A program made the translations under genes and the position numbers. Of a stretch of 34,938 nucleotides of DNA, positions 17,581 to 30,928 are shown piece after piece. Source of the DNA: a virus; the IMG/VR virus record IMGVR_UViG_3300025687_000158, positions 1-34,938 of that record. One strand, written 5' to 3'. The first letter of the stretch is position 1; every line of letters begins with the position of its first letter. Below the pieces are notes generated by a model. The model ran no database searches, was not told the DNA's origin, and saw only the letters and a program-made list of their open reading frames with translations.

Positions 17581-17610
17581 ATGAAAACCTTTAAAGACTA
17601 TTTAACAGAG
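17581..17610 (+). other. Capsid targeting sequence-like N-terminal peptide
   Basis: Encodes MKTFKDYLTE. Compared with T4 IPI/IPIII MKTYQEFIAE, identical or conservative residues occur at M1, K2, T3, F/Y4, K/Q5, D/E6, Y/F7, L/I8 and E10. The cut by a gp21-like protease would follow E10. Confidence 0.6.
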
Positions 17611-17931
17611 AACCATAATGATTCTATTGATATTCAAAACCTATTAAATGAATCTCTAACAGAAGAGCAAGAAGCTGCAATTGACAATGCAATTTCTAAG
17701 ATCATGGAAGAACATGAAAACGGTAGAGATCTTGAAGAAATTATGGAGGAAATTGTAAATGAAGGTATTTTAGGTTCTGTCTTAGGAGGTCTTACTGGTT
17801 TTGCTTTAGGTAAAGCTGTAGGTGGAGCTATTGCAAAAGTATTAGGAATTGAAAAAGGCGCTCTTTATGATCTTTTAACCAGTCGATTAGTTGGTGCTGC
17901 ATTAGGTGCGGTATTAGGTAAGAGGCTATAA
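17581..17931 (+). CDS. Glycine-zipper internal head protein candidate with capsid targeting sequence
   Basis: A 116-residue protein in three parts. Residues 1-10 (MKTFKDYLTE) match the capsid targeting sequence of T4 internal proteins (MKTYQEFIAE, from memory) at most positions, including the final prohead-protease type site L-T-E. Residues 11-60 are acidic and helical (E-E-Q-E-A-A-I-D-N-A-I) with further possible cut sites L-N-E (23-25) and V-N-E (59-61). Residues 62-116 are hydrophobic and Gly-rich at regular spacing (G-S-V-L-G-G-L-T-G-F-A-L-G-K-A-V-G-G-A, then G-A-A-L-G-A-V-L-G-K), a glycine zipper that can insert in membranes. Packaging in the head and a membrane role during DNA entry are inferences. 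A clear AAGGA lies 5 bases before the ATG. Confidence 0.65.
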   Translation: MKTFKDYLTENHNDSIDIQNLLNESLTEEQEAAIDNAISKIMEEHENGRDLEEIMEEIVNEGILGSVLGGLTGFALGKAVGGAIAKVLGIEKGALYDLLTSRLVGAALGAVLGKRL

Positions 17932-17941
17932 TTTAATTAAT

Positions 17942-18595
17942 GTGACTTACATAGGAATAGACTTTTCTCTTAATAGCCCAGCTGTATGTATTCAGGATAA
18001 CAAAGGGAATTACAAATTTATCTCATTCTTTAATTTTGGAAATCGTTTATGGGATTCTGAAAAAATGCCAAAGGCGTTCAGCTTACATAAGGAGTTATCA
18101 GATGATAACACTATTTTAGCAATACCGTATAATAGAGAAGTTGATAGCAAAGAATTTCTCATAAGAGAAAGACAGAAACTTAATGACGGTTCTGCTATAG
18201 CCGAGCTTATGTCAAATATTCTTGTAACTTTTTGTGGAACGCAGAATGTTACAATTGGTCTGGAAGGTTTCTCTTATGGATCTACCGGTAACTCTTTTAT
18301 TGATATTGTTCAGTACAATACATTCTTAAGAAATGAATTACTCCAAGCATATGGGTCAGAAAAGATAAATGTTTTTCAACCATCTCATGTTAAGAAATTA
18401 GCAGGCAAAGGAAATGCAAATAAACACTACATGGTTAAGGCATTTCAGGATGATGTCCTTAATGATAAAGATCTAAGGAATACAAAATTATGGAAATGGT
18501 GTAAAGGAAAGGACTTTTCGGAAAAGATTCCAAAACCATTAGATGATCTTGTAGATTCATACTTTATACTTAAATCTATACAAGCTAACCAATAA
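17942..18595 (+). CDS. RuvC-like Holliday junction resolvase/endonuclease
   Basis: A 217-residue RNase H-fold nuclease of the RuvC type. It should cut branched DNA, resolving recombination or replication junctions before packaging. Visible motifs: G-I-D-F-S with the first acidic residue D7; I-G-L-E-G-F-S-Y-G with E108; the P-S-H-V-K-K-L-A-G-K-G-N-A-N-K segment (147-161), very like the conserved RuvC/Crossover junction nuclease pattern before the last motif; and D-D-L-V-D-S-Y (D201, D202, D205). All four acidic positions expected for two-metal catalysis are present. The start is GTG: the frame has no ATG upstream and starting later would remove D7. T4 uses the unrelated gp49 endonuclease VII for this job. 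Confidence 0.8.
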   Translation: MTYIGIDFSLNSPAVCIQDNKGNYKFISFFNFGNRLWDSEKMPKAFSLHKELSDDNTILAIPYNREVDSKEFLIRERQKLNDGSAIAELMSNILVTFCGTQNVTIGLEGFSYGSTGNSFIDIVQYNTFLRNELLQAYGSEKINVFQPSHVKKLAGKGNANKHYMVKAFQDDVLNDKDLRNTKLWKWCKGKDFSEKIPKPLDDLVDSYFILKSIQANQ

Positions 18596-18598
18596 ATA
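18591..18598 (+). promoter_or_regulatory. Late-promoter-like element AATAAATA
   Basis: AATAAATA spans the stop codon of the resolvase gene, 63 bases before the ATG of the co-chaperonin gene at 18662. The longer gap makes it a more plausible promoter than the copies lying 5-8 bases before an ATG. Confidence 0.35.
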
Positions 18599-18661
18599 CT
18601 ATTCTTTCAATCAATCAGTTAAATTTTATATTGTAGATCCAGAAATTAGTTTCAGCTATTT

Positions 18662-18958
18662 ATGATAAAAGCGATAAAAAATAGAATACTTCTTAAAAAA
18701 GATGAGCAACCAGATAAAATTGGTTTAATCTATGTACCTAAACTAGAAGGTCAGCATGCACCCCCCTACTCTGGCATTATCTTATCAGTAGGTCCTGATA
18801 TAGAAGATCCTGATTATGAAGAAGGTTTGAGAGTCATATTTCATGATTTAGCAGGTACTGAATTTGAAGTAAATGGAGAAAAGATTTTTAGTATCAGGGA
18901 TACTGACGTGACTGCAATAATTTTTGATAAAATATCTAAACCTACTGAAACTAAGTAG
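18662..18958 (+). CDS. GroES/gp31-like co-chaperonin
   Basis: A 98-residue protein with the length and layout of the Cpn10 family (GroES 97 aa; T4 gp31 111 aa). It starts I-K-A-I-K-N-R-I-L-L-K-K-D-E, equal to the GroES first strand (R-V-L-V-K-R-x-E). The mobile loop region is P-D-K-I-G-L-I-Y-V-P-K, with G-L-I-Y-V in place of the hydrophobic G-G-I-V-L tripeptide area that binds GroEL. Then Y-S-G-I-I-L-S-V-G-P-D matches G-x-V-x-A-V-G-x-G, followed by V-I-F-H-D-L-A-G-T-E-F-E and a D-V-T-A-I-I end. It would cap the host GroEL for folding of phage proteins, as gp31 does for the T4 major capsid protein. No GroEL is in this window. Confidence 0.85.
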   Translation: MIKAIKNRILLKKDEQPDKIGLIYVPKLEGQHAPPYSGIILSVGPDIEDPDYEEGLRVIFHDLAGTEFEVNGEKIFSIRDTDVTAIIFDKISKPTETK

Positions 18959-18964
18959 GGATTT

Positions 18965-18974
18965 GGATATATAA
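18965..18974 (+). promoter_or_regulatory. Candidate promoter element GGATATATAA
   Basis: GGATATATAA lies right after the co-chaperonin stop codon and 146 bases before the gp32-like gene. It matches the element at 23282-23291 exactly over ten bases. If active, it starts a long leader for gp32 mRNA. Confidence 0.4.
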
Positions 18975-19120
18975 TTAACAAAGGAACTGATTATTCAGGG
19001 ACTTTTAAACTGGCACTAACAAGGCAAAGTATTATTGGCAATTCCCGGGCACGCAAATAGGCAATGCTAAGTTAGGCTTTTAATAAACAAAAGTTAAACT
19101 TAAAAAAAAGGCAAAGTAAA
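18975..19120 (+). promoter_or_regulatory. Structured leader of the gp32-like gene
   Basis: A 146-base non-coding stretch before gp32, the longest leader in the window. Near its end a long hairpin can form: AAGTT (19069-19073) with AACTT (19097-19101) and CTTTT (19077-19081) with AAAAG (19089-19093), joined by two G-U pairs and one A-A mismatch, loop AATAAAC. An A-rich single-stranded tract (19102-19109) follows, then the ATG at 19121. AAGGCAAAGTA occurs twice, at 19021-19031 and at 19108-19118 next to the start codon. T4 gp32 represses its own translation by binding a leader with a pseudoknot and an unstructured A/U-rich tract, so autoregulation here is plausible but inferred. Confidence 0.45.
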
Positions 19121-20020
19121 ATGGCAAATGAATTTGACATCTTCAGTGTTAGCGTCAATGACCTAGACACTGGCGACAGAGAAAGATCCGGTGGATCTGA
19201 CCTCTACACTCCAAAACCCGATCAGGGTCAAGACGGTACTTACCGTTCTCTAATTAGGTTCCTACCTAATATTAAAAATCCACGCAAACCTTTCGTTCGT
19301 AAATTCGTCTATTGGTTGGAAGACCGTGACGGAAATGGTTTCTATGCTGACTCACCATCAACAGTTGGAGAAAAATGTCCAGTACAGGATATGTTCTTTA
19401 AACTTCGTAACAGTGAATCTGCTGTAGATAAAAAGATGTCCGAAAGTCTAAAGCGTAGAGAAGTATTCTATGCATTGGTTCAAATCGTTAAGGATCCACA
19501 AAATCGTGATCTTGAAGGTCAAGTCAAAGTATTCAAATTTGGATATAAGATTAAGGCTAAGATTGATGAAGAATTGAATCCACAATTCGATGAACCAACT
19601 CAAGTATTTGATCCGTTTGAAGGTAAGAACTTTGAATTGGTAATTTCAAAGAAAGGTGGTTATCCTAACTATGATTCTTGTAAATTCCAAGGTTCTCGTT
19701 CTGCAATGGCAATCAATGGAGAAAATGTAACCGATTCTGATGAAGGTCGTAAGGCAATCCTTGAATTCTTAAAAGATGCCCCTGATCTTGGTAATTTTGA
19801 TTACAAATCATGGAACGATGAAACTCGTAACAAGGTAATGAACATCCTTTCTCAATATAGCTCGCCGGGAGCTTCTATTGAAACTGTTATGCGTAAGTCT
19901 GAACCTACACCTGCACCTAAGAAAGTTGAAAAAGCTGCTGAGGCAGTAGCTGAAGAAACCACTGAAGCTGCCCCTGGCGGAGATGACTTTGATGATTTCA
20001 TTAACGGATTAGATCTCTAA
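19121..20020 (+). CDS. 32: gp32-like single-stranded DNA-binding protein
   Basis: A 299-residue protein (T4 gp32: 301) that aligns along its length by eye with gp32: S-L-I-R-F-L-P (T4 A-V-I-R-F-L-P), I-V-K-D-P-Q-N with E-G-Q-V-K-V-F-K-F-G-Y-K-I (T4 V-V-K-D-P, E-G-K-V-F-K-Y-R-F-G-K-K-I), F-E-G-K-N-F-E-L-V-I with G-Y-P-N-Y-D-S-C-K-F (T4 W-E-G-A-N-F-V-L-K-V, G-F-S-N-Y-D-E-S-K-F), and an acidic tail D-D-F-D-D-F-I-N-G-L like the T4 interaction tail. The zinc site of T4 (His plus three Cys) is missing: only C86 remains where T4 has C-P-V-C. Arginine codons are mostly CGT, unlike neighbouring genes that favour AGA, suggesting very high expression. It coats ssDNA and organises replication and recombination. 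Confidence 0.85.
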   Translation: MANEFDIFSVSVNDLDTGDRERSGGSDLYTPKPDQGQDGTYRSLIRFLPNIKNPRKPFVRKFVYWLEDRDGNGFYADSPSTVGEKCPVQDMFFKLRNSESAVDKKMSESLKRREVFYALVQIVKDPQNRDLEGQVKVFKFGYKIKAKIDEELNPQFDEPTQVFDPFEGKNFELVISKKGGYPNYDSCKFQGSRSAMAINGENVTDSDEGRKAILEFLKDAPDLGNFDYKSWNDETRNKVMNILSQYSSPGASIETVMRKSEPTPAPKKVEKAAEAVAEETTEAAPGGDDFDDFINGLDL

Positions 20021-20024
20021 TCTT

Positions 20025-21095
20025 ATGGCAACAGAAGTTAATATTTCTTCTGAGATGAAGACTCGGATTATCGATAAGGTAGTCCGAGTCCTTCATCATA
20101 GCCATTCTCATCCTGAAAAAAGAAGGCCTTTAGAAAGTAGAGATAGGTTAAATTTTGCATGCCCGTATTGTGGAGATTCAACTTCTAACCCTCGAAAGAA
20201 AAGAGGTAATCTTTATTGGAATGATCTGTATATTCATTGTTACAACTGCTCTGCTCACGTTTCTTTGGATGTATTTTTAAAGGATCATAATTTAAACTTT
20301 GAAGGAGAAGATCGTGTTGAAGTATTAAATTACATCAAAGAAAATAAAAGAAACTTTTCGTTTGGTGAAAGCTTAGATTTTTATCTTTTTGATAAAGCAA
20401 AAGAATTGGCATTAACCTTTGATGAACTTGCGTTAGGATTTAACATCTATCCAATTAACTCTCTAACATATAGAGCTTATCCATATCTTAAGAGTAGATT
20501 ACTTCATCATAAGTCTGGTCATTTTGCATATGATCCTCGTCGAAAAGAATTATATGTTTTTAACCTTACGCCTGAAGGTAAGATACTTGGTTTTCAAACT
20601 AGGGATCTTGAAGGTAATGGTCCTAAATATAAAACATGGAACATACAAAGAATCTATGATAGATTAAAGAAGCCTCTTGAATTATCCGATGATGAAATTG
20701 ATAATCTTAATAAGATATCAATGTTATTTGGAATCTTAACTGCTGATTTTAGTAGAGACTTTACAATATTTGAAGGTCCAATTGATTCTATGTTTATGAC
20801 CAACTCCATCGGATTAACAGGCGTTAAAAAACAGATCGTTGAATTTAATGAAATTCCAACCGCTAGGTATTTCTTTGATAATGATATTGAAGGTAAAACA
20901 CGAATGATTGAAAAACTTAAATCTGGGCAGTATGTATTTATGTGGGATAAGTTTTTAAAGGATTATTCAATACCTTCAAAAAAGGTAAAGGACTTAAATG
21001 ACTTAGTTAAATATGAGTATACTAATCGTACTGGGTGCCTTAAAGAGATAGATAGATATTTTACAAATAACCATTTAGACATTATCTTTATATGA
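20025..21095 (+). CDS. 61: DNA primase, gp61-like
   Basis: A 356-residue DnaG-type primase (T4 gp61: 342). It makes RNA primers for lagging-strand synthesis. The N-terminal zinc ribbon has C46-P-Y-C49 and C72-Y-N-C75; the surrounding C-P-Y-C-G-D-S and I-H-C-Y-N-C match T4 gp61 C-P-V-C-G-D-S and I-H-C-Y-N-C. The TOPRIM domain has the acidic motif T-I-F-E-G-P-I-D-S near residue 248 and F-F-D-N-D-I-E-G-K near 284. It lies 4 bases after gp32 and its TGA stop overlaps the next ATG (ATGA). The gp41-type helicase is not in this window. Confidence 0.85.
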   Translation: MATEVNISSEMKTRIIDKVVRVLHHSHSHPEKRRPLESRDRLNFACPYCGDSTSNPRKKRGNLYWNDLYIHCYNCSAHVSLDVFLKDHNLNFEGEDRVEVLNYIKENKRNFSFGESLDFYLFDKAKELALTFDELALGFNIYPINSLTYRAYPYLKSRLLHHKSGHFAYDPRRKELYVFNLTPEGKILGFQTRDLEGNGPKYKTWNIQRIYDRLKKPLELSDDEIDNLNKISMLFGILTADFSRDFTIFEGPIDSMFMTNSIGLTGVKKQIVEFNEIPTARYFFDNDIEGKTRMIEKLKSGQYVFMWDKFLKDYSIPSKKVKDLNDLVKYEYTNRTGCLKEIDRYFTNNHLDIIFI

Positions 21096-21124
21096 TTAAG
21101 AACTTTGTAAATTTCATAAATGAA
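21092..21124 (+). other. Capsid targeting sequence-like N-terminal peptide
   Basis: Encodes MIKNFVNFINE, with the phenylalanine pair and I-N-E ending shared with MKTFKDYLTE at 17581. One extra residue follows the Met. Confidence 0.4.
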
Positions 21125-21304
21125 CAATTTGATGATTTCTATGATGACTTTGAAACCAGTCAAAAAAAGATTAAGCTGTTTACAAAGTTTACAAAGAGTG
21201 ATCTAGATCATAAAGAAAAAGGTATTAAAATTGATACGCCTAAAAAAAGGTTTCAACCTAAAATAAGGGTTATGTCTAAACAATCTGATAAAGGAATATT
21301 CTAA
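21092..21304 (+). CDS. Small basic protein with capsid targeting-like N-terminus (70 aa)
   Basis: A 70-residue protein between primase and UvsY, overlapping both (ATGA and TAATG). The N-terminus MIKNFVNFINE has the F-x-x-F-I-x-E pattern of the capsid targeting peptides elsewhere in this window. The rest begins acidic and aromatic (F-D-D-F-Y-D-D-F-E) and becomes Lys-rich (K-K-R-F-Q-P-K-I-R-V). No known family was recognised. Either it is an internal head protein embedded in the replication operon, or the N-terminal similarity is a chance helix. Confidence 0.55.
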   Translation: MIKNFVNFINEQFDDFYDDFETSQKKIKLFTKFTKSDLDHKEKGIKIDTPKKRFQPKIRVMSKQSDKGIF

Positions 21305-21753
21305 TGGCATTTGATGATACACAAATAAAACAGGCTAATGAAGAATTAGAAACTAGATTAGCCACCGATCGTATAGATTGGAAAAATAAAATCAATGACC
21401 TTGTTCATAAGATTAAGAATATGAATGATCTAGCTGAATGTCAGGTTAATATGTTATCTTATCGGCAAATCCTTTTGGATAAAGTTACTGATTTTAAGAC
21501 CATGATATATAAAAGGAACGCCACGTGGGAAAGGTATTACCGCCAACAATATCGAGAGTATACTCTTAACTATGACGTTAAACTAACAAGTGGAGAAAAA
21601 CATCAATTCATTAAGGCAGACTTATCTGCATTAAGAACACAAATAGATATGCTTCAGTCACATGTTGATTATTACTATGAATGTATTAAGACATTAGATA
21701 ATATGGCATTTGCTATTCGTAACCGTATAAGATTAGATGACCAACAACAATAA
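21304..21753 (+). CDS. uvsY: UvsY-like recombination mediator
   Basis: A 149-residue, strongly helical protein (T4 UvsY: 137). The C-terminal half follows the T4 pattern: a tyrosine-rich segment (Y-Y-R-Q-Q-Y-R-E-Y), then a Glu/Lys stretch with K-A-D-L-S-A-L-R-T-Q-I-D-M-L (T4 L-S-A-D-K-D-V-L-K-V-D-T-S-L), and an ending A-F-A-I-R-N-R-I (T4 G-F-A-I-K-H-I). Immediate position before UvsW, as in T4, supports the call. UvsY loads the UvsX recombinase on gp32-coated ssDNA. Both ends show TAATG overlaps, indicating translational coupling. UvsX is outside the window. Confidence 0.75.
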   Translation: MAFDDTQIKQANEELETRLATDRIDWKNKINDLVHKIKNMNDLAECQVNMLSYRQILLDKVTDFKTMIYKRNATWERYYRQQYREYTLNYDVKLTSGEKHQFIKADLSALRTQIDMLQSHVDYYYECIKTLDNMAFAIRNRIRLDDQQQ

Positions 21754-23255
21754 TGGAACTTTCGCTCTCTGATAATAAAAAGTTTTTAGTTATTGATTCA
21801 TGTACCGAACTGGAATATGAACAGCTAAAAAGTAGCTTAACTAAAAAGATTGAAGGATGGAGATTCCACCCTTTAGTTAAAAAGAGAGTGTGGGATGGAA
21901 ATATTTCCTTCATTAAAAGAAATAAAATTCCAGCAGGTCTTTGGAAGGAAGTAATAGACATCTGTAAGGAATATGATTTAAAGTATAGCCTAAATGGAAT
22001 TACCGAGATATTTGATACCGGAATTAAGGAATCAGATTTCTTAGAATGGGTTGATGATTTCTTTGCAGATTCTGATATTAAACCAAGGGACTATCAAGTT
22101 GATGCGGCATTTAAGATTTTAAGATACCGCCGCTGTCTTGCTGAATTAGCAACATCTGCAGGTAAAACTCTAATCTCTTTTATGGTTGTTGCATATATGA
22201 TGGAACAGTTAGGTATTAAAAAGATCTTAATGATTGTACCTAATGTTAGTTTGGTTGTGCAGGCAACTGGAGATTTTGAACAATACAATAAAAGTAGGGT
22301 TCCTATTAGGATCCAACAGATATATGCTGGTGTTAAGATACGAAAAAGCTCTAACATTGTTATTGGTACTTATCAATCTTTAACTAAAAAGGATGAAGAA
22401 TATTTTCAACAATTTGATGCTGTCTTTGTAGATGAAACCCATAAAGCAAAAGCTAATTCAATTCAAAAGATTATGGATATGTGTTGGCATTGTGATTACC
22501 GGTTTGGTCTTAGCGGTACTATTCCTAAAAGAGGTACTGTAAATAGATTAAGTCTTATGTCGGCAATGGGACCTCTTGTTACTCAGGTTAAGGCTAATTA
22601 TTTACAGGATGAAGGTCATATTGCAAAATGTAAAGTTTTACAGATACACATGGATTATGCAACCAATGAACAAAAAGAAGCATTCTCTAGTTTATCAAAA
22701 AATCCTTATGACCGCCAAAAATTGTTTAGCTTAGAACAAAACTTTATTAATCAAAGTGATAAGAGATTAGATTTTGTATGTAATGTAATTAAAAAATCAA
22801 CCTCAAACTCTTTGGTTCTATTTCATAAAATTGCATACGGTGAAAGGCTATATCAAAAATTAAGAGAAATTACAGATAAGAAAATTTATTATGTAGATGG
22901 TTCTGTTAATGCTGATATTAGAGAAGAGTTTAAAAAGAGAATGGAAAAGAATGATGATGTTATAATTGTAGCATCATACGGTACATTCTCCACTGGTATT
23001 TCAATTAAAAACATTCATAATATCTTTTTTACCGAATCATTTAAGTCCGAGGTAATTATAAGACAGTCAATTGGCCGTGGTTTAAGAAAACATGCATCAA
23101 AAGATACTGTAAAGATTTATGACTTTATTGATGATTTTAGATATAAAACAGACGATCATGATTGGTTAAACTATATTTACCGTCATGGTATGTCCAGACG
23201 AAACATATACAAGGAAGAGAAATTTCCATTTACGGTTCAAAATATTAGATTCTAA
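21753..23255 (+). CDS. uvsW: UvsW-like DNA/RNA helicase
   Basis: A 500-residue superfamily 2 helicase (T4 UvsW: about 500). The N-terminal DNA-binding part has K-R-V-W-D-G-N-I-S (T4 Y-G-N-W-D-G-R-I-R). Helicase motifs: Q-like P-R-D-Y-Q (111-115), Walker A A-T-S-A-G-K-T-L (133-140), D-E-T-H (227-230), G-L-S-G-T (252-256), the strongly conserved I-I-V-A-S-Y-G-T-F-S-T-G-I-S-I-K-N and motif VI Q-S-I-G-R-G-L-R-K-H, nearly identical to T4. It unwinds R-loops and branched DNA and drives fork regression and the switch to recombination-dependent replication. It ends the gp32-61-uvsY-uvsW operon. Confidence 0.92.
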   Translation: MELSLSDNKKFLVIDSCTELEYEQLKSSLTKKIEGWRFHPLVKKRVWDGNISFIKRNKIPAGLWKEVIDICKEYDLKYSLNGITEIFDTGIKESDFLEWVDDFFADSDIKPRDYQVDAAFKILRYRRCLAELATSAGKTLISFMVVAYMMEQLGIKKILMIVPNVSLVVQATGDFEQYNKSRVPIRIQQIYAGVKIRKSSNIVIGTYQSLTKKDEEYFQQFDAVFVDETHKAKANSIQKIMDMCWHCDYRFGLSGTIPKRGTVNRLSLMSAMGPLVTQVKANYLQDEGHIAKCKVLQIHMDYATNEQKEAFSSLSKNPYDRQKLFSLEQNFINQSDKRLDFVCNVIKKSTSNSLVLFHKIAYGERLYQKLREITDKKIYYVDGSVNADIREEFKKRMEKNDDVIIVASYGTFSTGISIKNIHNIFFTESFKSEVIIRQSIGRGLRKHASKDTVKIYDFIDDFRYKTDDHDWLNYIYRHGMSRRNIYKEEKFPFTVQNIRF

Positions 23256-23273
23256 TATGTAATATCTTTCTTG

Positions 23274-23294
23274 ATGTACATGGATATATAAAAA
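23274..23294 (+). promoter_or_regulatory. Candidate promoter ahead of the acidic protein
   Basis: ACATGGATATATAAAA here and ACATGAATATATAAAA at 26207-26222 agree over 16 bases with one difference. Both lie in intergenic gaps 20-25 bases before an ATG (23318 and 26243), and the second follows a terminator. This is the best-supported promoter-like element of the ATATATAA class in the window. Confidence 0.45.
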
Positions 23295-23317
23295 AAGAAC
23301 AAAAAAAGAAATTTATA

Positions 23318-24610
23318 ATGAAGCCTATCAAAAAGTTTTCAACGATTTCAACTGGTGCTACAAAAAGTGCCGACTCTATTTTGGAATCTGCAAGCCTTAG
23401 CCCAGAAGCATTAGCTGAACTCGTTCAGAAATTGGGTTACAATAACATTGAAGAAGTTAAAAAAGAAAAAGCTCTTCTTTCAAAATTAGAAGCCCTTCTT
23501 AAGGAATTTGCCCCTAAAGATGATGTTAGCGAAGATGACGCTGAAGATATCGAAGATGAGGTATTAAAAATGGGAGAACCTAAATCATTGGAAGATGAGG
23601 AAGGTGCAAAAGAAGAAGATAAAGAAGCTGGAGCTCCCGGTGAAGTTGCTGAAGAAGATGAGGAAGCTTCTGAAATTGAAAAAGAAGTCGAAGACGACGA
23701 AGACGACGAAGACGACGATGAGTCTGATAGAATAGAAAAGGACACTGTAGAAATGGGTGAGCCTGAAGAAAAGGAAGAAGAAGAAGGTGAAGAGGTTGTT
23801 ACCGATGATCAACCTATTACTGATGAAGTACCTGAAGAAGGCGACGATGAAGAATCTGGCGAAGAGATTGAAAAAGAAGAAGAATCAGAAGAAAAGCCTG
23901 TTGCCAAAAGAAGGATCATGACCTTTGAAGATTTCTGTACCGAAAAGGAAGTTACGGTTAATAAGAATGTTAGTTACCGTGATGATGAAGAAGAAGAAGA
24001 TTATGCTGTACCTGTAGCTGATTCTGAAGAAGTTGAAGTTGAAGCTGATGAAGAAATTGAGGAAGAGGTAAAAACAACTTCATCTATTAAATCTTTCTCT
24101 ACATTTGTATCTGAAGCATATTTATCTGAAGAAGCTGATAATGGTCCTGAGTTAACTGAAGAAACTCCTGATGAAAATGGTATTGCTATTAAGATTGCAA
24201 AAGGTGACGGTCCTGAAACTGCCGCTGGTATTGCAGGTGATATTATGAATATGGGTAAGGTAAAGAAGGAAGATGAAAAGGACGGAGAAGCATTGGTTAC
24301 TAAAGATCAACCAATTACTAAAGTTCCTGAAACTTCAAAGGACGAACCTAATGTTCAAGGTACTGTTGTTGTAAAAGAGGAAGAAGAAGTTGAAGCCGAA
24401 GAGGAAGAAACTGTTGAAGAAGCTAAAGTATCAGAAAAAGAAATTAAGTCCGATGCTGAATTTGAAGAATATGCAACCGAAATTCTGAAAAATGCACATG
24501 GCGACAAATTTGATGAAGCTAAAGCAAAAGAAGTTATTGACGGTTTAAAATCTAAATATAGCGGAGATTATGGCGCTATGGTTGGGGCATTACAATCTTC
24601 AATGGGATAA
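23318..24610 (+). CDS. Highly acidic repetitive protein, internal head/prohead core candidate (430 aa)
   Basis: A 430-residue protein dominated by Glu and Asp (residues 67-250 and 315-375). A module recurs in imperfect form: E-V-L-K-M-G-E-P (81-88), D-T-V-E-M-G-E-P (142-149) followed by T-D-D-Q-P-I-T-D-E-V-P-E (162-173), and D-I-M-N-M-G-K (308-314) followed by T-K-D-Q-P-I-T-K-V-P-E (328-338). Two segments resemble capsid targeting peptides: M-T-F-E-D-F-C-T-E (201-209) and K-S-F-S-T-F-V-S-E (258-266), the latter followed by L-S-E. The last 60 residues are a folded-looking helical domain (A-T-E-I-L-K-N-A-H-G, then Y-S-G-D-Y-G-A-M-V-G-A-L). T4 gp67 and gp22 are acidic scaffold/internal proteins, so a prohead core role is plausible; no sequence match to them was seen. 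Confidence 0.6.
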   Translation: MKPIKKFSTISTGATKSADSILESASLSPEALAELVQKLGYNNIEEVKKEKALLSKLEALLKEFAPKDDVSEDDAEDIEDEVLKMGEPKSLEDEEGAKEEDKEAGAPGEVAEEDEEASEIEKEVEDDEDDEDDDESDRIEKDTVEMGEPEEKEEEEGEEVVTDDQPITDEVPEEGDDEESGEEIEKEEESEEKPVAKRRIMTFEDFCTEKEVTVNKNVSYRDDEEEEDYAVPVADSEEVEVEADEEIEEEVKTTSSIKSFSTFVSEAYLSEEADNGPELTEETPDENGIAIKIAKGDGPETAAGIAGDIMNMGKVKKEDEKDGEALVTKDQPITKVPETSKDEPNVQGTVVVKEEEEVEAEEEETVEEAKVSEKEIKSDAEFEEYATEILKNAHGDKFDEAKAKEVIDGLKSKYSGDYGAMVGALQSSMG

Positions 24611-24621
24611 TAAATTTATTA
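24608..24621 (+). repeat. 14-bp perfect palindrome before the ligase-like gene
   Basis: TAATAAATTTATTA is a perfect palindrome that begins on the stop codon of the acidic protein gene and ends one base before the ATG at 24623. It could be an operator or a weak RNA hairpin. In AT-rich DNA a chance origin is quite possible. Confidence 0.3.
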
Positions 24622-24622
24622 C

Positions 24623-24685
24623 ATGAAATACGTAAAGTTATTTGAGCAATGGCTGGCAGATAAAAGCCAGCCATTTCTTTTTGAA
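24623..24685 (+). other. Candidate capsid targeting peptide and processing site
   Basis: Encodes M-K-Y-V-K-L-F-E-Q-W-L, then L-F-E at residues 19-21 followed by G-G-A-A-G. The L-x-E before Gly fits the prohead protease consensus. The similarity to the 17581 peptide is weaker than for 29337. Confidence 0.4.
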
Positions 24686-25894
24686 GGTGGCGCTGCAGGT
24701 CATATGAGCCACCCATACGATGATAAGGGATTAACCTTTGGGGATTTTAAAAGTATCATTGATGCAGGTCTTCGTGGTGAACTAAACTTTGAAGAGGATC
24801 CTATTGAAAAGACCGATGGGCAAAACTTATTTGTTACTATTAAAGATGGTAAAGTTATGTTTGCTAGAAACACTGGTGATACAAAGGATCCGATGAGCCT
24901 TGACCAGTTCGTGTCAAAATTTGAAGCCCATGAAGTTCCTATGGTAAGGGATACTTTTGTTTTTGCTGCTAAGGATCTTGCTAGCCTTTTAGTTAAATTA
25001 CCTGCAGCGAAACAAGAAGAAATCTTTGGTAATGGTAAAAACTTCATGAACATGGAGCTTATCTATTCTAAAAATCCTAATGTTATTAATTATGATACTG
25101 ATGTTATCCAATTTCATAACATTACACAAACAGATGGTGATGGTAATATTTTAGGAACTGACAGCAGACCTGCTAAAGAGATACCACAAATCTTAGCCAC
25201 AGTAAAAGCTAACATTGGTAAAACTTTTAAGATCATTCCACCTAGAGTACTTCAATTAAGACAAGATCTTGATTTTAGTGCTAATAAGAAAAGGTTTGAA
25301 GATAAGGTTATTGCTTTACAAAAACGTTACGGATTAAATGATGGAGATGAGGTTGCTAGATATCATGAAATGTGGTGGAGAGAATTAATTGATGCAGACT
25401 TTCCTAATCTATCACAAGATGTTAAAGAAGGTCTTTTAAGAAGATGGGCATATGATGATAAGAAATCATTAAACATGAGATCTCTTGAAAAGCAAATCGG
25501 TAAAGATGAAGCGGCATTAGTTAAGAAGTATGATAAGGAAGATGTTAAGAAAAAGTATAAAGAAAACATTCAACCGTTTGAAGACTTATTCTTAGAGCTC
25601 GGTGCAACAATTATTAAGAATGCAAGTAATTTTGTTGCAGCTAATCCATCTGATGAAGCACAGAGACTAAGAGCATACCTTGATGCAGAAACCACTAAGA
25701 TTAGAAAGGGTGGCGGTGTTGATCAAATTAAAAGAGTAGAAGATCAATTGGCTAAACTCGATAGAATTGGCGGCCTTGATTCAATTTATCCAAGTGAAGG
25801 TATAGTTTTTAGATATAATGGAAAGTTATATAAACTAACTGGCGCATTTGCTCCACTTAATCAATTATTAGGAATTATAAAATACGGCAGATAA
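24623..25894 (+). CDS. Ligase-superfamily nucleotidyltransferase with capsid targeting-like N-terminus (423 aa)
   Basis: The motifs of the covalent nucleotidyltransferase (ATP-dependent DNA/RNA ligase and capping enzyme) superfamily are present: motif I E-K-T-D-G (62-66; K63 the predicted AMP-accepting lysine), A-R-N-T-G (81-85) with the usual Arg, N-M-E-L-I-Y (143-148; E145, motif III), S-E-G-I-V-F-R (391-397; motif IV) and K-L-Y-K-L (401-405; motif V). An unusual helical, Lys-rich insert of about 200 residues lies between III and IV. No OB-fold domain is evident after motif V, so this may be an RNA ligase-like enzyme or another adenylyltransferase. Residues 1-13 (M-K-Y-V-K-L-F-E-Q-W-L-A-D) and L-F-E (19-21) before G-G-A-A-G suggest head targeting and protease processing. 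It is one base coupled to the DUF6356-like gene. Confidence 0.7.
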   Translation: MKYVKLFEQWLADKSQPFLFEGGAAGHMSHPYDDKGLTFGDFKSIIDAGLRGELNFEEDPIEKTDGQNLFVTIKDGKVMFARNTGDTKDPMSLDQFVSKFEAHEVPMVRDTFVFAAKDLASLLVKLPAAKQEEIFGNGKNFMNMELIYSKNPNVINYDTDVIQFHNITQTDGDGNILGTDSRPAKEIPQILATVKANIGKTFKIIPPRVLQLRQDLDFSANKKRFEDKVIALQKRYGLNDGDEVARYHEMWWRELIDADFPNLSQDVKEGLLRRWAYDDKKSLNMRSLEKQIGKDEAALVKKYDKEDVKKKYKENIQPFEDLFLELGATIIKNASNFVAANPSDEAQRLRAYLDAETTKIRKGGGVDQIKRVEDQLAKLDRIGGLDSIYPSEGIVFRYNGKLYKLTGAFAPLNQLLGIIKYGR

Positions 25895-26097
25895 TGAAAC
25901 ACCTTAAGGATGCTGGTATGGGATATTGGCAACATTGGTTACATGCAACTAAAATAGGAATATCTCTTATTATTCATGCATGGTTTCCTAATCTATTATC
26001 CGACTATGCCAGTAACCAACTCTGTAAAAAGAAAGGGGTTGATGGCTGTTGGGATGAAGATGAATGGGATAACTGGTGGGGAGAGTATGGCATATAA
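25894..26097 (+). CDS. DUF6356-like small membrane-associated protein (67 aa)
   Basis: A 67-residue protein. M-G-Y-W-Q-H-W-L-H-A-T followed by a hydrophobic stretch and I-H-A-W-F-P-N-L-L-S-D-Y-A-S fits the pattern I recall for DUF6356 (M-x-Y-x-x-H, hydrophobic helix, H-A-x-x-P-x-L, A-S). In bacteria that family is sometimes labelled capsule biosynthesis protein, without experimental support that I know of. The C-terminal tail is very rich in Trp, Asp and Glu (D-E-W-D-N-W-W-G-E-Y). It probably associates with a membrane. The start overlaps the previous stop (TAATG), and a strong terminator follows. Confidence 0.55.
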   Translation: MKHLKDAGMGYWQHWLHATKIGISLIIHAWFPNLLSDYASNQLCKKKGVDGCWDEDEWDNWWGEYGI

Positions 26098-26163
26098 AAC
26101 CTACATCTAATAGGTTATAATTTATTGTAAGTATATTCCATAATAGACTAATCTAATGATGTT

Positions 26164-26192
26164 AAAAGGCGAGTATTATACTCGCTTTTTTT
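26164..26192 (+). terminator. Rho-independent terminator
   Basis: Perfect 7-bp stem GCGAGTA/TACTCGC (26169-26175 and 26179-26185) with a TTA loop, extended by a G-U and A-U pairs, and followed by seven T residues (26186-26192). It ends the transcript containing the acidic protein, ligase-like and DUF6356-like genes. Confidence 0.9.
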
Positions 26193-26202
26193 CTATACTA
26201 TG

Positions 26203-26222
26203 TTTTACATGAATATATAAAA
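26203..26222 (+). promoter_or_regulatory. Candidate promoter after the terminator
   Basis: ACATGAATATATAAAA (26207-26222) nearly duplicates the element at 23277-23292. It follows the terminator directly and lies about 20 bases before the ATG at 26243, which is where a new transcript must start. Confidence 0.5.
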
Positions 26223-26242
26223 GGTAATACAAAATATATGAA

Positions 26243-29200
26243 ATGAAAGAGTTAACTCAAATCTATAAGGAACATGGAAAACAGCTTATTGAGGATCTTC
26301 TGAAAGATTATTTGGTAGTGACCGAAAAACTTGCAGGGTCTTCTTTTGCTTTTCAAAAATCAGGAGATTCTTTACAGTATTTTAAAGGTAGTGGAGATAG
26401 ACCGATTAATCTGATTGATCGTACACTAATGATGTATTATGAAACACCTATTCAATACATTAAGAATGTTACATCTAATATGTTATCTTCTATTCCTGAA
26501 AATTGGAGATTTTGTTTTCAGTATTTTGTACATAATCAGCCTAGTGTTATTACTTATGATAAGATACCTTCGAATCATTTGGTTCTTACTCATATTAAGG
26601 TAATGAATCCTAATGGTAAAATTGCCAAGATAATAGAAGATCCTAGAGTAATTAAAGATTGGTCATCTGCTTTAGGTGTTACTCCTCTTACTCCTATCTT
26701 TAAGGGATATCTTACAAACGAACAGAAGGAAAAGATTAAGTCTTTTATTTCAACACCAAAAGAAGACCATCAGGAGATTTTTAAAACTAGCTCTTTTGCC
26801 GAATATCTTATAAGAACACTTAATTCAAATGTAGACTCAACTACATTACATGATGATCTTAAAAAACCAATTGACTCAATTGTGTTTAAGTTTTATAAGC
26901 CTGGTACAACCCAAACCTTTTCTGCTAAAATGATTGATCCTTACACAATGAATCTTATGAAGGATAAGGAACCAATTGATTTAAGAAGAGCACCGGCTGA
27001 TATTAATGAAATTTTATTATTAGATGTTTTGGCATTTATTGAAGAAAGAGGCTTAAAGAAACATGAAGTACTAAGCTCTACACCAGATGAAAGATATCTT
27101 GAATTAGTATCAAACATCTTTAATGACTATGTTACCAAAAAAGGTAAGGACATTAAAAATGTTGATATTGAAAAAGCCGATTTTGCAAAAGGTGATGAAT
27201 TTAATCTAAATATAGATTTAGTGCCTGGTCAAATGACAAGAGATTATCTTAAAGGTGATTCTACATTACAGGATTTATTTAAGATAATGTTAGGCTCTCT
27301 TCGTAAAAAGAGAAATCCTGAAAAGGCTGGAAATATAATGACACCTTCGGTTATCAATGACTTTAATAAGATGGTTGATAAAATCAATGATGTAGTAGAA
27401 GTTGAAGATGATGGTAAGTTTAAAACCTTTGATGATTATCTAAAGATTAAGTCAACTAATGAATCTCTATTACCAACAGCAGAAGAAATGGTCTTGGAAG
27501 AAAGAGTACTTAATTACAATTCATTTATTAACTTAGGTAAAGTTATTGTAGAAGAAGATGGCAAAACCTTAGTAAGAAATAAGAAAACTGGAGATGAGTA
27601 CGAAGTTAAAAATCCAGACCCTAAAAAGCATGAAATAGTAGAGCCTAAAGGTAAAGAAGATAAGGAGGCAGACGAACAGCCACAAGAAGGTGCAAGTGAA
27701 AAGATATCTAAATTATCTAATAAAGTAGGTGATGAAATAGAAAAGATTAAAGATCCGGATAAAAAAGAAAATGCAGAACAGGTATTAGATACATTAAATG
27801 TTATTAATGATCCTAATGCATCAAAAGAAGATAAGATTGAAGCAATACAAGCATTAAATGATGCAGGGCTGATTGCAAGAAATAGTGTAACTGCAAAGGC
27901 TACAAAAATGTATTTAAACACATCAGCAACGGGTCTTCCAAGAAAACTTTTAGTACCAAGTTCTGGCAGTCCTTCTGAAATAACCAATTTAATGAAAGAA
28001 ATTGGATTGGAAAACTTCTCGCCTGAAGGCGGAAAGGTTGGCAGAAAGGAAATGACAGCTGCTAAAATATTTGGTGAAGAAAAAGTTGTAAATGTAAAAA
28101 CTGAAGTATTAGAAGATGGCGTTCAAATAGGTGGTGGTAAAATACAAAAAACTAAAATACCTTCAGATGATGAGCTATTAAAGGTATATGGTTCTAAAGA
28201 AGAGGCTGATTTGGCAAAAAAGTTTTTAGAGAGAAGAAATAAGATTATTGATTCTGCAATGGGCTCATTTAAGTCAGGTGAAATGTCAATCATAGAACCG
28301 GTTCCTAATACTCCACCTTCATCACCAGAAAACAGGGATAAGCTAAAAAATGCTACAGCGGATTCTATAGTAGAAGGATTTGAGGAACAATTTAAAAAGA
28401 CAGGAAATACCCCTTCAAAATCACAGACTAAGATTTTAAATGATTTTAAGAATCTTAAAGATATTAAAGATCCTGAAGAATATGATAAGGAATTGCATAG
28501 ACTTACCGAGGAAATGTTTGCCGACCCATTTTTTGATAGCGCAACTGCCGATGTTGCTGAAATGGTAACATATATGAGTGAACTTAATAAAGGTAATGAA
28601 GTATATATGCCAGCCCAGTCAAATTATCCACTAGGTGACATAATATCAATTTCTCCTGAGAAAATAGATTTTGAAAAAGATTCACCAGAAGAAATACAGA
28701 GAAAGATGCAATTAATCTATAACGGTGTAGAGGCTAGGTCTATTAAGAAAGGCGCAGGTGGCGCATCAGCATCTGGTGTAAAAACAGATCAATCTTCATT
28801 TAATGAAGTTACTAATAAGAAAGGTGAAAAGATTAGTCCTGATGAAATAAAGAATGATTTATCAGATTTATCTGATAAAGATAAAGTATATAATGAACTT
28901 ATGTTTGGTGATGTTGATAAAGCGGCAAAAAGAATTGAAGAAATTGCAGAAAAATATGATTTTGATTTAAATGATGAAGACTTTAAAAAGAGAAGAGACC
29001 AATCAGTTAATTCTGCTGTTGAGAATATTCTTAGTAAGCCTAAGTGCGAGGGGTCAGATAGAGAAAATCTAAAGAAAAAATTGGAGTCATATTTTAATCA
29101 AGGCGAAATGTATGCATCGGTGTATAATGAAAATGTTAATGAACAGCTGTTTGTTAATGAACAATACAAATACACTAAAACTAAAGGTCTTGATGTTAAT

Positions 29201-29317
29201 AGAACAGATGGTGTAAATAAGCTTGCTAGATTAAATTTTGCATTTTCTGCAGGATCTTGGAGTTGTGACGGCCGTCCTTCTAATCCTATACCAACAAGGT
29301 TTGTAAATGATAGATAA
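26243..29317 (+). CDS. Ligase-like nucleotidyltransferase with very long C-terminal region (1024 aa)
   Basis: The first 240 residues resemble an RNA ligase-type nucleotidyltransferase: V-V-T-E-K-L-A-G-S-S-F-A-F (25-37) matches the Rnl2-type motif I E-K-x-x-G (T4 Rnl2: E-K-I-H-G-T-N-F), with K29 the predicted nucleophile; W-R-F-C-F-Q-Y-F-V-H-N (near 93) takes the place of motif III; P-I-D-S-I-V-F-K-F (near 208) and F-S-A-K-M-I-D-P (near 227) look like motifs IV and V. Two usual Glu positions appear replaced (Q in III, D/S in IV), so activity is uncertain. Residues 330-1024 are charged, Lys/Glu/Asp-rich and partly low complexity, with K-T-F-D-D-Y-L (393-399) similar to the capsid targeting peptides. 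A third-base preference and gene direction match its neighbours. No other domain was recognised. Confidence 0.6.
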   Translation: MKELTQIYKEHGKQLIEDLLKDYLVVTEKLAGSSFAFQKSGDSLQYFKGSGDRPINLIDRTLMMYYETPIQYIKNVTSNMLSSIPENWRFCFQYFVHNQPSVITYDKIPSNHLVLTHIKVMNPNGKIAKIIEDPRVIKDWSSALGVTPLTPIFKGYLTNEQKEKIKSFISTPKEDHQEIFKTSSFAEYLIRTLNSNVDSTTLHDDLKKPIDSIVFKFYKPGTTQTFSAKMIDPYTMNLMKDKEPIDLRRAPADINEILLLDVLAFIEERGLKKHEVLSSTPDERYLELVSNIFNDYVTKKGKDIKNVDIEKADFAKGDEFNLNIDLVPGQMTRDYLKGDSTLQDLFKIMLGSLRKKRNPEKAGNIMTPSVINDFNKMVDKINDVVEVEDDGKFKTFDDYLKIKSTNESLLPTAEEMVLEERVLNYNSFINLGKVIVEEDGKTLVRNKKTGDEYEVKNPDPKKHEIVEPKGKEDKEADEQPQEGASEKISKLSNKVGDEIEKIKDPDKKENAEQVLDTLNVINDPNASKEDKIEAIQALNDAGLIARNSVTAKATKMYLNTSATGLPRKLLVPSSGSPSEITNLMKEIGLENFSPEGGKVGRKEMTAAKIFGEEKVVNVKTEVLEDGVQIGGGKIQKTKIPSDDELLKVYGSKEEADLAKKFLERRNKIIDSAMGSFKSGEMSIIEPVPNTPPSSPENRDKLKNATADSIVEGFEEQFKKTGNTPSKSQTKILNDFKNLKDIKDPEEYDKELHRLTEEMFADPFFDSATADVAEMVTYMSELNKGNEVYMPAQSNYPLGDIISISPEKIDFEKDSPEEIQRKMQLIYNGVEARSIKKGAGGASASGVKTDQSSFNEVTNKKGEKISPDEIKNDLSDLSDKDKVYNELMFGDVDKAAKRIEEIAEKYDFDLNDEDFKKRRDQSVNSAVENILSKPKCEGSDRENLKKKLESYFNQGEMYASVYNENVNEQLFVNEQYKYTKTKGLDVNRTDGVNKLARLNFAFSAGSWSCDGRPSNPIPTRFVNDR

Positions 29318-29320
29318 ATA
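29313..29320 (+). promoter_or_regulatory. Late-promoter-like element GATAAATA
   Basis: GATAAATA overlaps the stop codon of the 1024-aa gene and contains the full ATAAATA of the T4 late core. It is 7 bases before the ATG at 29328 and 16 before the alternative ATG at 29337, the latter giving a more normal leader. Confidence 0.35.
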
Positions 29321-29327
29321 AAAAAAT

Positions 29328-30707
29328 ATGCATATAATGAAGAATCTTCATAAATTAGATAATTTCATAACAGAGAAAAAGGTAGCTGTTAAAAGGAGAT
29401 ATACTGAAAAGTATCCAGCCAAGAATGTTTCTACTTCAGCAAAAGTTCGCAATGCGGTATTAACCGCTATTGCAGATGGTCATTTAACTGAAGAAGAGGT
29501 TTCAAATATTCTATCTGAAATATCTGCTCATAAAAGATGGTTAAACAGAAACTTAGGTTTATTTAATATTAGTGAAGATGAAAATGGTATTAAGAGATAT
29601 TCATTATCTCCTTATGGTCAAAGAGTAAGAAAGGCCACCTTAAATGAATCTGAAGAACTTAATGAAGCCTTAAAAGTACCTCATACTAAACCTGGTCTTA
29701 AAAAAGTAAATATGTTTGTTGGTAGATTCCAACCTTTTACGTTAGGTCATGTTAAGGTATTTGAACAGATGTACAAAGAAAACGGTTTACCTACTGTAGT
29801 ATTCTTAGTAAGAGGTGGAAAGGCAGATCCTGAAAAAAGACCTTTTGATGAAAATCTTCAGCAGGCTATGTTTGCTAAAATGGCAAAACAATATCCATTC
29901 TTAGAAACTGCAATCGTAGTTCCTAATGGTGCTATTGATACTCTCTTTGCTGCTGCTAGGCCAACTTATGAACCGGTTCTTTGGGGTTATGGAACTGACA
30001 GAAAGAAGGCATACGATTCAATGATCAATAAAGATTCATATCGCGAACAATTAGGAGTTGATCCAGATTTTACTGGATATGAAATCTTTAGAACTGATGA
30101 TAACATATCAGCATCTAAAGTTCGTAATGCCCTTAAGATAGATGATGAAAAAGCATTTAAGCAAATGACGCCAAAAAGTATTCATAGTTTTTATAAAACT
30201 CTACAAGATATACTACAACCTATAAAAGAAAATCAAAACATGAAAAATTTAAAACCACTTAATGAGTTTGTCCTTAATGAAAAGGATGAAGAAAAGAAAG
30301 GCGGTGAGGAGGCCAAAGCCGATGAACCTAAAGTTGATACTAGTGGCGGCACTCTTAAGAGTATGAAGGTTGATGGAACTGATTATAATGCAGTCCTATC
30401 TACATTTGATGCAATCGGAGCAAAGCAAAAAGCAATGGGTAAAGATGTTGTAGGTCTTATTACATTACCAGGGGAAGAAGAAGTATATGAACTCTTAGCA
30501 AAAGAAGGTACTTCTAATGAATCTGTTATTAATGAAGAGTATGTAGAGCTAATGGATCCAATCCGCATGGCTAATGCAATGGGTGAAATACAACAAGTAT
30601 GGGATCAATGGAAAACTGGTCCTTTAACAGAACCTAATATGATTAAGCCTGCTCAAAAGGAACTTAAGGGTTGGTTGGATCGCTGGTTCAAACAAAATAT
30701 TAAATAA
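29328..30707 (+). CDS. NMNAT-like adenylyl/cytidylyltransferase fusion protein
   Basis: Residues 132-141 G-R-F-Q-P-F-T-L-G-H are the nucleotide-binding H-x-G-H-type motif of the cytidylyltransferase/NMNAT superfamily (NadM/NadR-like G-R-F-Q-P-x-H-x-G-H; the first His is Phe/Thr-shifted here). I-S-A-S-K-V-R-N-A-L (260-269) is the second signature (I-S-x-T-x-V-R), and G-Y-G-T-D-R (220-225) lies between. The likely reaction is transfer of AMP (or CMP) to a phosphorylated substrate, perhaps NMN to NAD. Residues 4-16 (MKNLHKLDNFITE) are a capsid targeting-like peptide, favouring ATG 29337 as the true start. Residues 17-105 are a small helical domain; L-N-E sites at 105-107 and 111-113 precede the enzyme domain. 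A second targeting-like segment begins at M305, and residues 305-459 form another, acidic domain. The substrate cannot be read from sequence. Confidence 0.75.
   Translation: MHIMKNLHKLDNFITEKKVAVKRRYTEKYPAKNVSTSAKVRNAVLTAIADGHLTEEEVSNILSEISAHKRWLNRNLGLFNISEDENGIKRYSLSPYGQRVRKATLNESEELNEALKVPHTKPGLKKVNMFVGRFQPFTLGHVKVFEQMYKENGLPTVVFLVRGGKADPEKRPFDENLQQAMFAKMAKQYPFLETAIVVPNGAIDTLFAAARPTYEPVLWGYGTDRKKAYDSMINKDSYREQLGVDPDFTGYEIFRTDDNISASKVRNALKIDDEKAFKQMTPKSIHSFYKTLQDILQPIKENQNMKNLKPLNEFVLNEKDEEKKGGEEAKADEPKVDTSGGTLKSMKVDGTDYNAVLSTFDAIGAKQKAMGKDVVGLITLPGEEEVYELLAKEGTSNESVINEEYVELMDPIRMANAMGEIQQVWDQWKTGPLTEPNMIKPAQKELKGWLDRWFKQNIK
29337..29375 (+). other. Capsid targeting sequence-like peptide, start-deciding
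   Basis: Encodes MKNLHKLDNFITE: M-K start, F-I-T-E end with I-x-E cut site. Since such peptides are N-terminal in T4, translation probably starts here and not at 29328. Confidence 0.5.
30240..30281 (+). other. Internal capsid targeting-like segment
   Basis: Encodes MKNLKPLNEFVLNE inside the NMNAT-like fusion (residues 305-318). It begins with Met-Lys as a free-standing gene would, suggesting that two internal-protein genes were fused, or that an internal start is used. No good ribosome binding site is seen before it. Confidence 0.4.
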
Positions 30708-30928
30708 TGTCGGTACATAGAAAAGTAGTGGAAGAGGTAACTCTTAATCCTAATATGAATGTACAGTCCATGGGTCCGGTAGAATTACCAGGTGATCCAG
30801 GATCTATGAATTCTTTTACTGCACAAAAGGTTGGCAGCGGGGATTCTCCAAATGATCCAAAGAAAAAAAATAAAGTTAAGTTATTATCATTTGACCAATT
30901 TCTTGACCTTATGAAAGTAAATAAATAA
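30707..30928 (+). CDS. Small protein with C-terminal targeting-like segment (73 aa)
   Basis: A 73-residue protein, one-base coupled (TAATG) to the NMNAT-like gene. The first 50 residues are polar and Pro/Gly/Asn-rich (P-V-E-L-P-G-D-P-G-S), probably disordered. A basic stretch (D-P-K-K-K-N-K-V-K) leads into L-L-S-F-D-Q-F-L-D-L-M, which has the F-x-x-F-L pattern of the targeting peptides but at the C-terminus. No family was recognised. Confidence 0.5.
   Translation: MSVHRKVVEEVTLNPNMNVQSMGPVELPGDPGSMNSFTAQKVGSGDSPNDPKKKNKVKLLSFDQFLDLMKVNK
30920..30927 (+). promoter_or_regulatory. Late-promoter-like element AATAAATA
   Basis: AATAAATA overlaps the last two codons and stop of the 73-aa gene and ends 8 bases before the ATG of the 739-aa fibre-like gene. 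AAAGGT between them can serve as ribosome binding site. Confidence 0.35.

Follow-up and report, generated by a model that had tools for sequence, protein, structure and literature searches.

The internal proteins IPI, IPII and IPIII of bacteriophage T4 carry a targeting sequence (MKTYQEFIAE) which, in IPIII, controls targeting through residues 4 and 7 and processing through residues 8 and 10; with Asp at residue 10, targeting is kept and cutting is blocked (PMC9026906). T4 Alt, an ADP-ribosyltransferase, is also packaged, processed by gp21 and ejected (PMC9026906). For the Dar proteins of phage P1 no common N-terminal consensus was found (PMC9024508), and our search of the literature on capsid targeting in cyanophages and jumbo phages turned up only work on T4, P1 and SPN3US. 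Here we analyse the whole of virus record IMGVR_UViG_3300025687_000158, a genome fragment of 34,938 bases (the window) from an uncultured T4-like phage, in which a first-pass annotation had noticed T4-like peptides in several unrelated proteins and proposed that the phage packages a set of proteins, enzymes among them, in its head. The shared peptide (consensus K-x-F/Y-x-x-F/Y/W-I/L/V-x-E), hereafter the tag, is real and far above chance; its copies are very probably capsid-targeting sequences of the T4 kind, in a variant of that system that is large and carries enzymes.

Results

In order to place the window, we used its 423-amino acid protein (encoded from position 24623) as a query, which gave 284 related viral contigs, 80 of which were retained; four large ones extend to the head genes (G001, 181,663 bases; G002, 130,479; G003, 93,904; G004, 88,677). 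Starts of open reading frames (ORFs) were called by a simple method, and a nucleotide search of the window against phages gave zero matches. Matches to the G001 capsid protein lie in LR756500 (uncultured, 462 kb), in further uncultured phages (up to 735 kb), in phages of Tenacibaculum, Prevotella (Lak) and Chryseobacterium, and in the phage isolate PAU, whose host has been assigned to Sphingobacterium (PMC3738902). Because of these matches, the window phage is most likely a member of a T4-superfamily group infecting Bacteroidota.

All peptides quoted by the first-pass annotation are present in the sequence where it had placed them. A regular expression derived from T4 matched 19 N-termini in the window and the four large relatives, where about 1.1 were expected from the internal rate, and shuffled N-termini gave 0.02–0.16 matches per record. 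A position-specific profile was built from 25 such peptides with T4 left out of the training; this short-motif search, suggested in the annotation as a check, recovered ipI, ipII and ipIII from 49 kb of T4 and none of the other 88 of its 91 ORFs. LR756500 was likewise independent of the training, and there the profile marks 24 of 614 N-termini (shuffle mean 2.0) and 1 of 453 internal windows; per 1000 positions there are 3.66 matches of at least 12 bits within residues 1–8 and 0.12–0.16 elsewhere. Several N-termini of PAU, of a common type MKT[IL]xxLYEAxLNEA, are also marked. Most copies in the window are still marked by a second profile, which excludes every window family and from which the per-position chance values given below are taken. 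No N-terminus of the window's tail, baseplate and replication ORFs reaches tag-level scores (best 6.3 bits, an 80-amino acid ORF). The window's replication proteins lack the motif; an equal frequency in clearly non-virion proteins was what the annotation had named as refuting its proposal.

The tag is common to otherwise unrelated proteins. Eighteen tagged genes of LR756500 agree over codons 1–13 (73% of nucleotides, 65% of amino acids), with 8% amino acid identity over the following 27 residues and 38% identity over the 40 bases upstream. Tagged genes of this phage form clusters at 11.7–15.9, 181–201 and 313–317 kb, several of them having leucine-rich bodies that resemble one another (LDGLELIAKLAKVSVDELINL), which gives the impression of cargo in the course of duplication.

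The annotation had also pointed to a gp21-like protease elsewhere in the genome as something to look for. Peptidase_S77, the gp21 family, exceeds its cut-off in all four relatives reaching the head genes (48–55 bits, cut-off 27). In G001, G002 and G004, which hold three complete copies, the protease takes up the first third of one protein of 556–666 amino acids, with a scaffold-like tail fused behind it. This tail repeats a YSEYIAE-like unit every 14 residues, the strict pattern occurring six times in G001 (p 9e-10) and eight times in G004 (p 3e-13), and the unit corresponds to the second half of the tag. Its likeness to T4 gp22 is one seen by eye only (YSDAFSSKLSAIVE / YKDAISEKLSNLIS). The PAU protease is unfused, and a 4,044-base 'prohead core protein serine protease' is listed for MA9V-1 (PMC10537231).

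PAU allows the predicted cut to be compared with a sequenced protein. Its capsid protein has been N-terminally sequenced (PMC5646251), which puts the cut, homologous to the predicted capsid cut, within one residue of L-M-E. The depositor annotation of PAU has five 'internal capsid protein' entries, four of which begin with a similar peptide; the strict pattern is present in three of the five and in 17 of 297 ORFs overall (p 0.0015). The acidic gp155, adjoining the capsid gene, also scores (NSFRNFLLE). The PAU notes (L206, 94–1182) place a sigma factor (gp1) in an internal capsid vertex complex ('mango'); if right, this would be a virion-carried sigma factor.

Within the window, where the tagged proteins and the variable slot among them lie on the plus strand, two small proteins begin with the tag. 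The 116-amino acid protein at 17581 begins with MKTFKDYLTE (17581–17610; chance of KTFKDYLTE 1.4e-5), with a predicted cut after E10. Among its 69 orthologs F4 is kept in 100%, Y/F7 in 98%, L/I/M8 in 97% and E10 in 96%, with synonymous codon changes, and residues 5, 6, 9 and 11–14 are variable; the conserved positions (4, 7, 8 and 10) are the targeting and processing determinants of T4 IPIII. The 70-amino acid protein at 21092 begins with MIKNFVNFINE (21092–21124; KNFVNFINE, 4.6e-6), kept in most of 56 orthologs. Both have the T4-type arrangement, an N-terminal peptide of about ten residues with aromatic or hydrophobic residues at 4, 7 and 8 and Glu at 10, which is found with Asp in the protein at 24623 and in weak form in the protein at 29337. 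After an invariant Asn-Glu, the 17581 protein continues with a glycine-zipper hydrophobic C-terminal half (GILGSVLGGLTGFALGK..., 17764–17928), where NE/G[IVFL][ILF]GS[IV][FLI]GGLTGFALGK is conserved in about 30 distinct orthologs (the slash marks the candidate cut). This half gives a weak Gly-zipper match, under the cut-off, and could possibly be a released membrane-active peptide. NE/G was dropped as a certain cut site, P3 being Thr in one clade.

The 423-amino acid protein starts with MKYVKLFEQWLAD (24623–24661; KLFEQWLAD, 1.3e-4). The motif named in the annotation is confirmed here, although the final Glu is not, Asp taking its place in the window's clade; in divergent orthologs and clades the tag ends in Glu. 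By analogy with IPIII, tags that end in Asp or lack Glu should target without being cut, as predicted for this one. A second predicted protease site, L-F-E/GGAAGHM, lies at residues 19–21 (24677–24685); E21-G22-G23 does not vary across an alignment of 50 homologs, the most distant at about 40% identity, and [LIV]-x-E recurs at the domain border in most homologs with a fused 423-amino acid domain. Given Asp in the window clade, Glu in divergent clades and a second [LIV]-x-E before an invariant GG, the protein fits the split between targeting and processing residues of T4 IPIII.

Behind this site lies an RNA-ligase-like domain (24686–25891) in which ligase motifs I (KxDG), III (E), IV (EG) and V (K) are invariant as K63, D65, G66, E145, E392, G393 and K404. 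Sequence searches (Pfam, PHROG, PDB) gave no match, and no family profile places the protein in the ligase superfamily. A first structure model (predicted local distance difference test, pLDDT, 66.5) was rejected as too poor, its Foldseek matches being meaningless; a deeper alignment raised the pLDDT to 79.7. In this second model the tag is a short low-confidence helix, the linker around the second site is disordered and an ordered domain begins at about residue 30. In the fold search, PDB ranks 1–6 and 8 were all T4 RNA ligase 1 or 2, though with E values of 0.045–0.34, and named, more distant viral matches of the family are mostly RNA ligases. Because no sequence profile backs family membership, we call the protein RNA-ligase-like, with a predicted activity. 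The 423-amino acid domain of Mel-JY01 is joined to a cytidylyltransferase-like one. Downstream, between this gene and that of the 1024-amino acid protein, is a variable slot (25894–26097) holding an untagged 67-amino acid ORF present in 1 of 80 loci; relatives have tagged small ORFs there (G001 177704, G002 68956 and 69225).

The acidic modular protein (430 amino acids, 23318–24610) had been credited with two internal copies of the tag; both were confirmed and both are rare by chance. MTFEDFCTE (23918–23944; below 5e-6) appears as RIM[AT]F[ED]DF[IVC][KT]E or a near variant in 52 of 78 orthologs, and KSFSTFVSE (24089–24115; 17.8 bits, 1.9e-5) is kept in 49 of 78. Distant relatives have a larger, modular form with [IVL]-x-E sites followed by A or S between modules; this longer form, with its ES[IV]VTEA-type sites, suggests that the acidic protein is a polyprotein. 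In two such relatives (L060 7509–9890 and L077 7958–9904; about 650–790 amino acids), which look like polyproteins, these sites separate the modules, and a single C-terminal domain is conserved.

Copies at other places lack the final Glu. In the 1024-amino acid protein (26243–29317), whose N-terminal part is joined to the NMNAT domain in a single ORF in distant relatives, the segment KTFDDYLKI (27422–27448) is rare by chance (4.6e-5) and conserved as KTFx[DE]YL in 35 of 64 orthologs, so that the copy reported by the annotation stands except for its terminal residue. Searches of this protein (Pfam, PHROGs, PDB) gave nothing useful beyond the cytidylyltransferase domain of the fused relatives. 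Its N-terminus was considered as a canonical nucleotidyltransferase and dropped, EKLAGSS being without the Asp of KxDG.

The 73-amino acid protein reproduces the N-arm that the major capsid protein has in its mature form (LNPNMNVQSMG..LPGDPGSMN..GSGD, 30710–30850). Its residues 2–48 align with residues 43–89 of the G001 capsid protein with a score of 150 (shuffles at most 56), a region lying immediately after the predicted capsid cut. Behind a Lys-rich linker follows the C-terminal LSFDQFLDL (30884–30910; 3e-4); a [ST]F[DNE]x[FY] tail in this position is present in every full-length ortholog listed, which bears out the proposed C-terminal tag, again without its Glu. The protein reads like an adaptor from shell to core, an inference from its sequence. 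In some relatives a DUF3008 domain precedes the 73-amino acid-type protein. The DUF3008 loci (L004 15633–16025 and others) have the capsid N-arm copy and the C-terminal tag, and a literature search for DUF3008 in phages found no paper.

The NMNAT-like protein at 29337 begins with a variant tag, MKNLHKLDNFITE (29337–29375; 4.3–5.3 bits), in which F[IL]xE is kept in orthologs, within a wider L/I-x-x-F-[ILV]-x-E; here conservation supports the annotation and the weak profile score does not. A cytidylyltransferase/NMNAT-like domain follows (29712–29915; PF01467, 26.1 bits, cut-off 21), with GRFQPFTLGH fitting GxFxPxTxGH and with ISASKVR; the segment MKNLKPLNEFVLNE between the domains (30240–30281) has a low profile score. 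Among the tagged genes of relatives are some for ATP-grasp and zeta-toxin/AAA_33-like proteins.

Gene order in the window runs from tail/baseplate-like genes through RuvC-like, Cpn10, primase, UvsY-like and UvsW-like helicase genes to the tagged cluster (23318–30928), the tail and UvsW labels being assigned from gene order and sequence reading. The Cpn10 (GroES-like) co-chaperonin gene (18662–18958; PF00166, E 5.8e-11) is close to structural genes. A short-period repeat at 34314–34604, by the window end and opposite a called ORF, probably encodes collagen-like Gly-x-y on the plus strand.

Discussion

We propose that, during head assembly, the tag would bind the prohead scaffold core and bring its protein inside. 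Cutting after [ILV]-x-E would then fall to the gp21-like (S77) protease, which the closest relatives have as the N-terminal portion of their scaffold protein; once freed from the core, the cargo would be ejected together with the DNA when the phage infects its next host cell. Tags would act from N-terminal (17581, 21092, 24623, 29337), internal (acidic and 1024-amino acid proteins) and C-terminal (73-amino acid protein) positions, and the 423-amino acid enzyme would be cut instead at its second site, L-x-E/GG. Packaging, cutting and ejection in the window phage are what we infer from the motif with its enrichment and pattern of conservation, from the protease and scaffold repeats of the relatives and from the capsid-arm copy. 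The set of head-packaged proteins, enzymes included, that the first-pass annotation put forward gains support from the profile control, the S77 domains and the PAU annotation, packaging and enzyme activity both being predicted.

Several observations weigh against this proposal. The window is a fragment without a protease, capsid or scaffold gene, and the scaffold repeats are degenerate in G002 and LR756500. T4 gp22, gp67 and gp68 are without the motif, and gp22 is also without the 14-residue repeat, so that T4 sets no precedent for a scaffold carrying the motif. PAU gp70, annotated as 'internal capsid', is without the peptide, and these labels are depositor annotation, for which our literature search found neither a paper nor a PAU virion proteome. 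At 24623 the tag ends in Asp, as in 50 of 52 clade members (codons GAT and GAC), some divergent orthologs have no final Glu, or K or N at that position, and the tag at 29337 is weak (HKLDNFITE, 4.3 bits, not outstanding alone).

The points concerning the final residue could mean that the tag does target proteins to the head, there acting as a permanent anchor to which the protease step is mostly inapplicable. Asp at P1 in the window's 423-amino acid clade and the missing Glu in the 1024- and 73-amino acid copies would suit this explanation; we nevertheless consider it unlikely, as E10 is retained across the 17581 orthologs although residue 9 is free, both the scaffold and the acidic protein have repeated [IVL]-x-E sites, and L-x-E is where the capsid protein of PAU is cut. 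Still less probable is that the peptide serves for docking to some other complex of the phage, for example the tail, a replication factory or the sliding clamp. Proteins often dock through short F-x-x-[FY]-[IL] helices, and some copies are internal or C-terminal and without the protease residue; yet a profile trained without T4 recovers exactly the T4 head internal proteins, the motif stands in tandem in the scaffold-protease, one tagged protein has the capsid-arm copy, and a similar N-terminus is found in PAU 'internal capsid' proteins and in none of the window's replication proteins. Chance, a compositional bias of lysine-rich N-termini or a translation-start effect on the mRNA is hardly credible, for although K and I abound in many phage N-termini, shuffling leaves so few matches (2.0 against 24 in LR756500), F4, Y7 and E10 persist through synonymous codon variation, and copies also occur inside proteins and at a C-terminus.

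If the peptides are capsid-targeting sequences, a single code may serve tag and scaffold alike, an extension that we put forward tentatively, holding it somewhat more doubtful than probable. Cargo would mimic the 14-residue repeat of the protease-scaffold, the protease would erase both, tags could stand anywhere (the acidic polyprotein being cut into several cargos), and the capsid N-arm adaptor would link shell to core. Were this true, the payload of these phages would be open-ended and rich in enzymes. Since the tag is readable in the sequence, the proteins that these phages probably inject can be catalogued even for uncultured members and with no need of proteomics. The tag also suggests a role for many genes that lack annotation, and gives a lead on that of DUF3008. 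Candidates for head-packaged enzymes are RNA-ligase-like, NMNAT-like, ATP-grasp and kinase-like proteins, and one may speculate that a packaged RNA ligase takes part in repairing tRNAs, of the host or the phage, at an early stage. The recognition of the prohead core by T4-type targeting peptides becomes directly testable.

The tag resembles the targeting sequence of T4 IPI, IPII and IPIII in position, length, residue pattern, determinants (4, 7, 8 and 10) and [IL]-x-E end, and in the S77 protease of relatives. It differs in that we found no homology between the mature proteins, in the number of tagged genes (about 22 in LR756500), in the tagging of enzymes, and in having internal and C-terminal copies and Asp ends. 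As with T4 Alt, an enzyme is predicted to be in the head, here RNA-ligase-like and NMNAT-like, in relatives also ATP-grasp and zeta-toxin/AAA_33-like. With T4 gp21 and gp22 the relatives have in common the S77 domain, a scaffold part that contains [ILV]-x-E sites, and the order portal, protease, scaffold, capsid; they differ from T4 in a single fusion protein of 556–666 amino acids with 14-residue motif repeats, PAU being unfused. An N-terminal signal also brings proteins into the head in the case of P1 DarB, but here, unlike among the Dar proteins, one motif would serve all cargo. Finally, the many proteins predicted here to be packed and ejected recall the ejection proteins of SPN3US and phiKZ, many proteins being packed and ejected in SPN3US.

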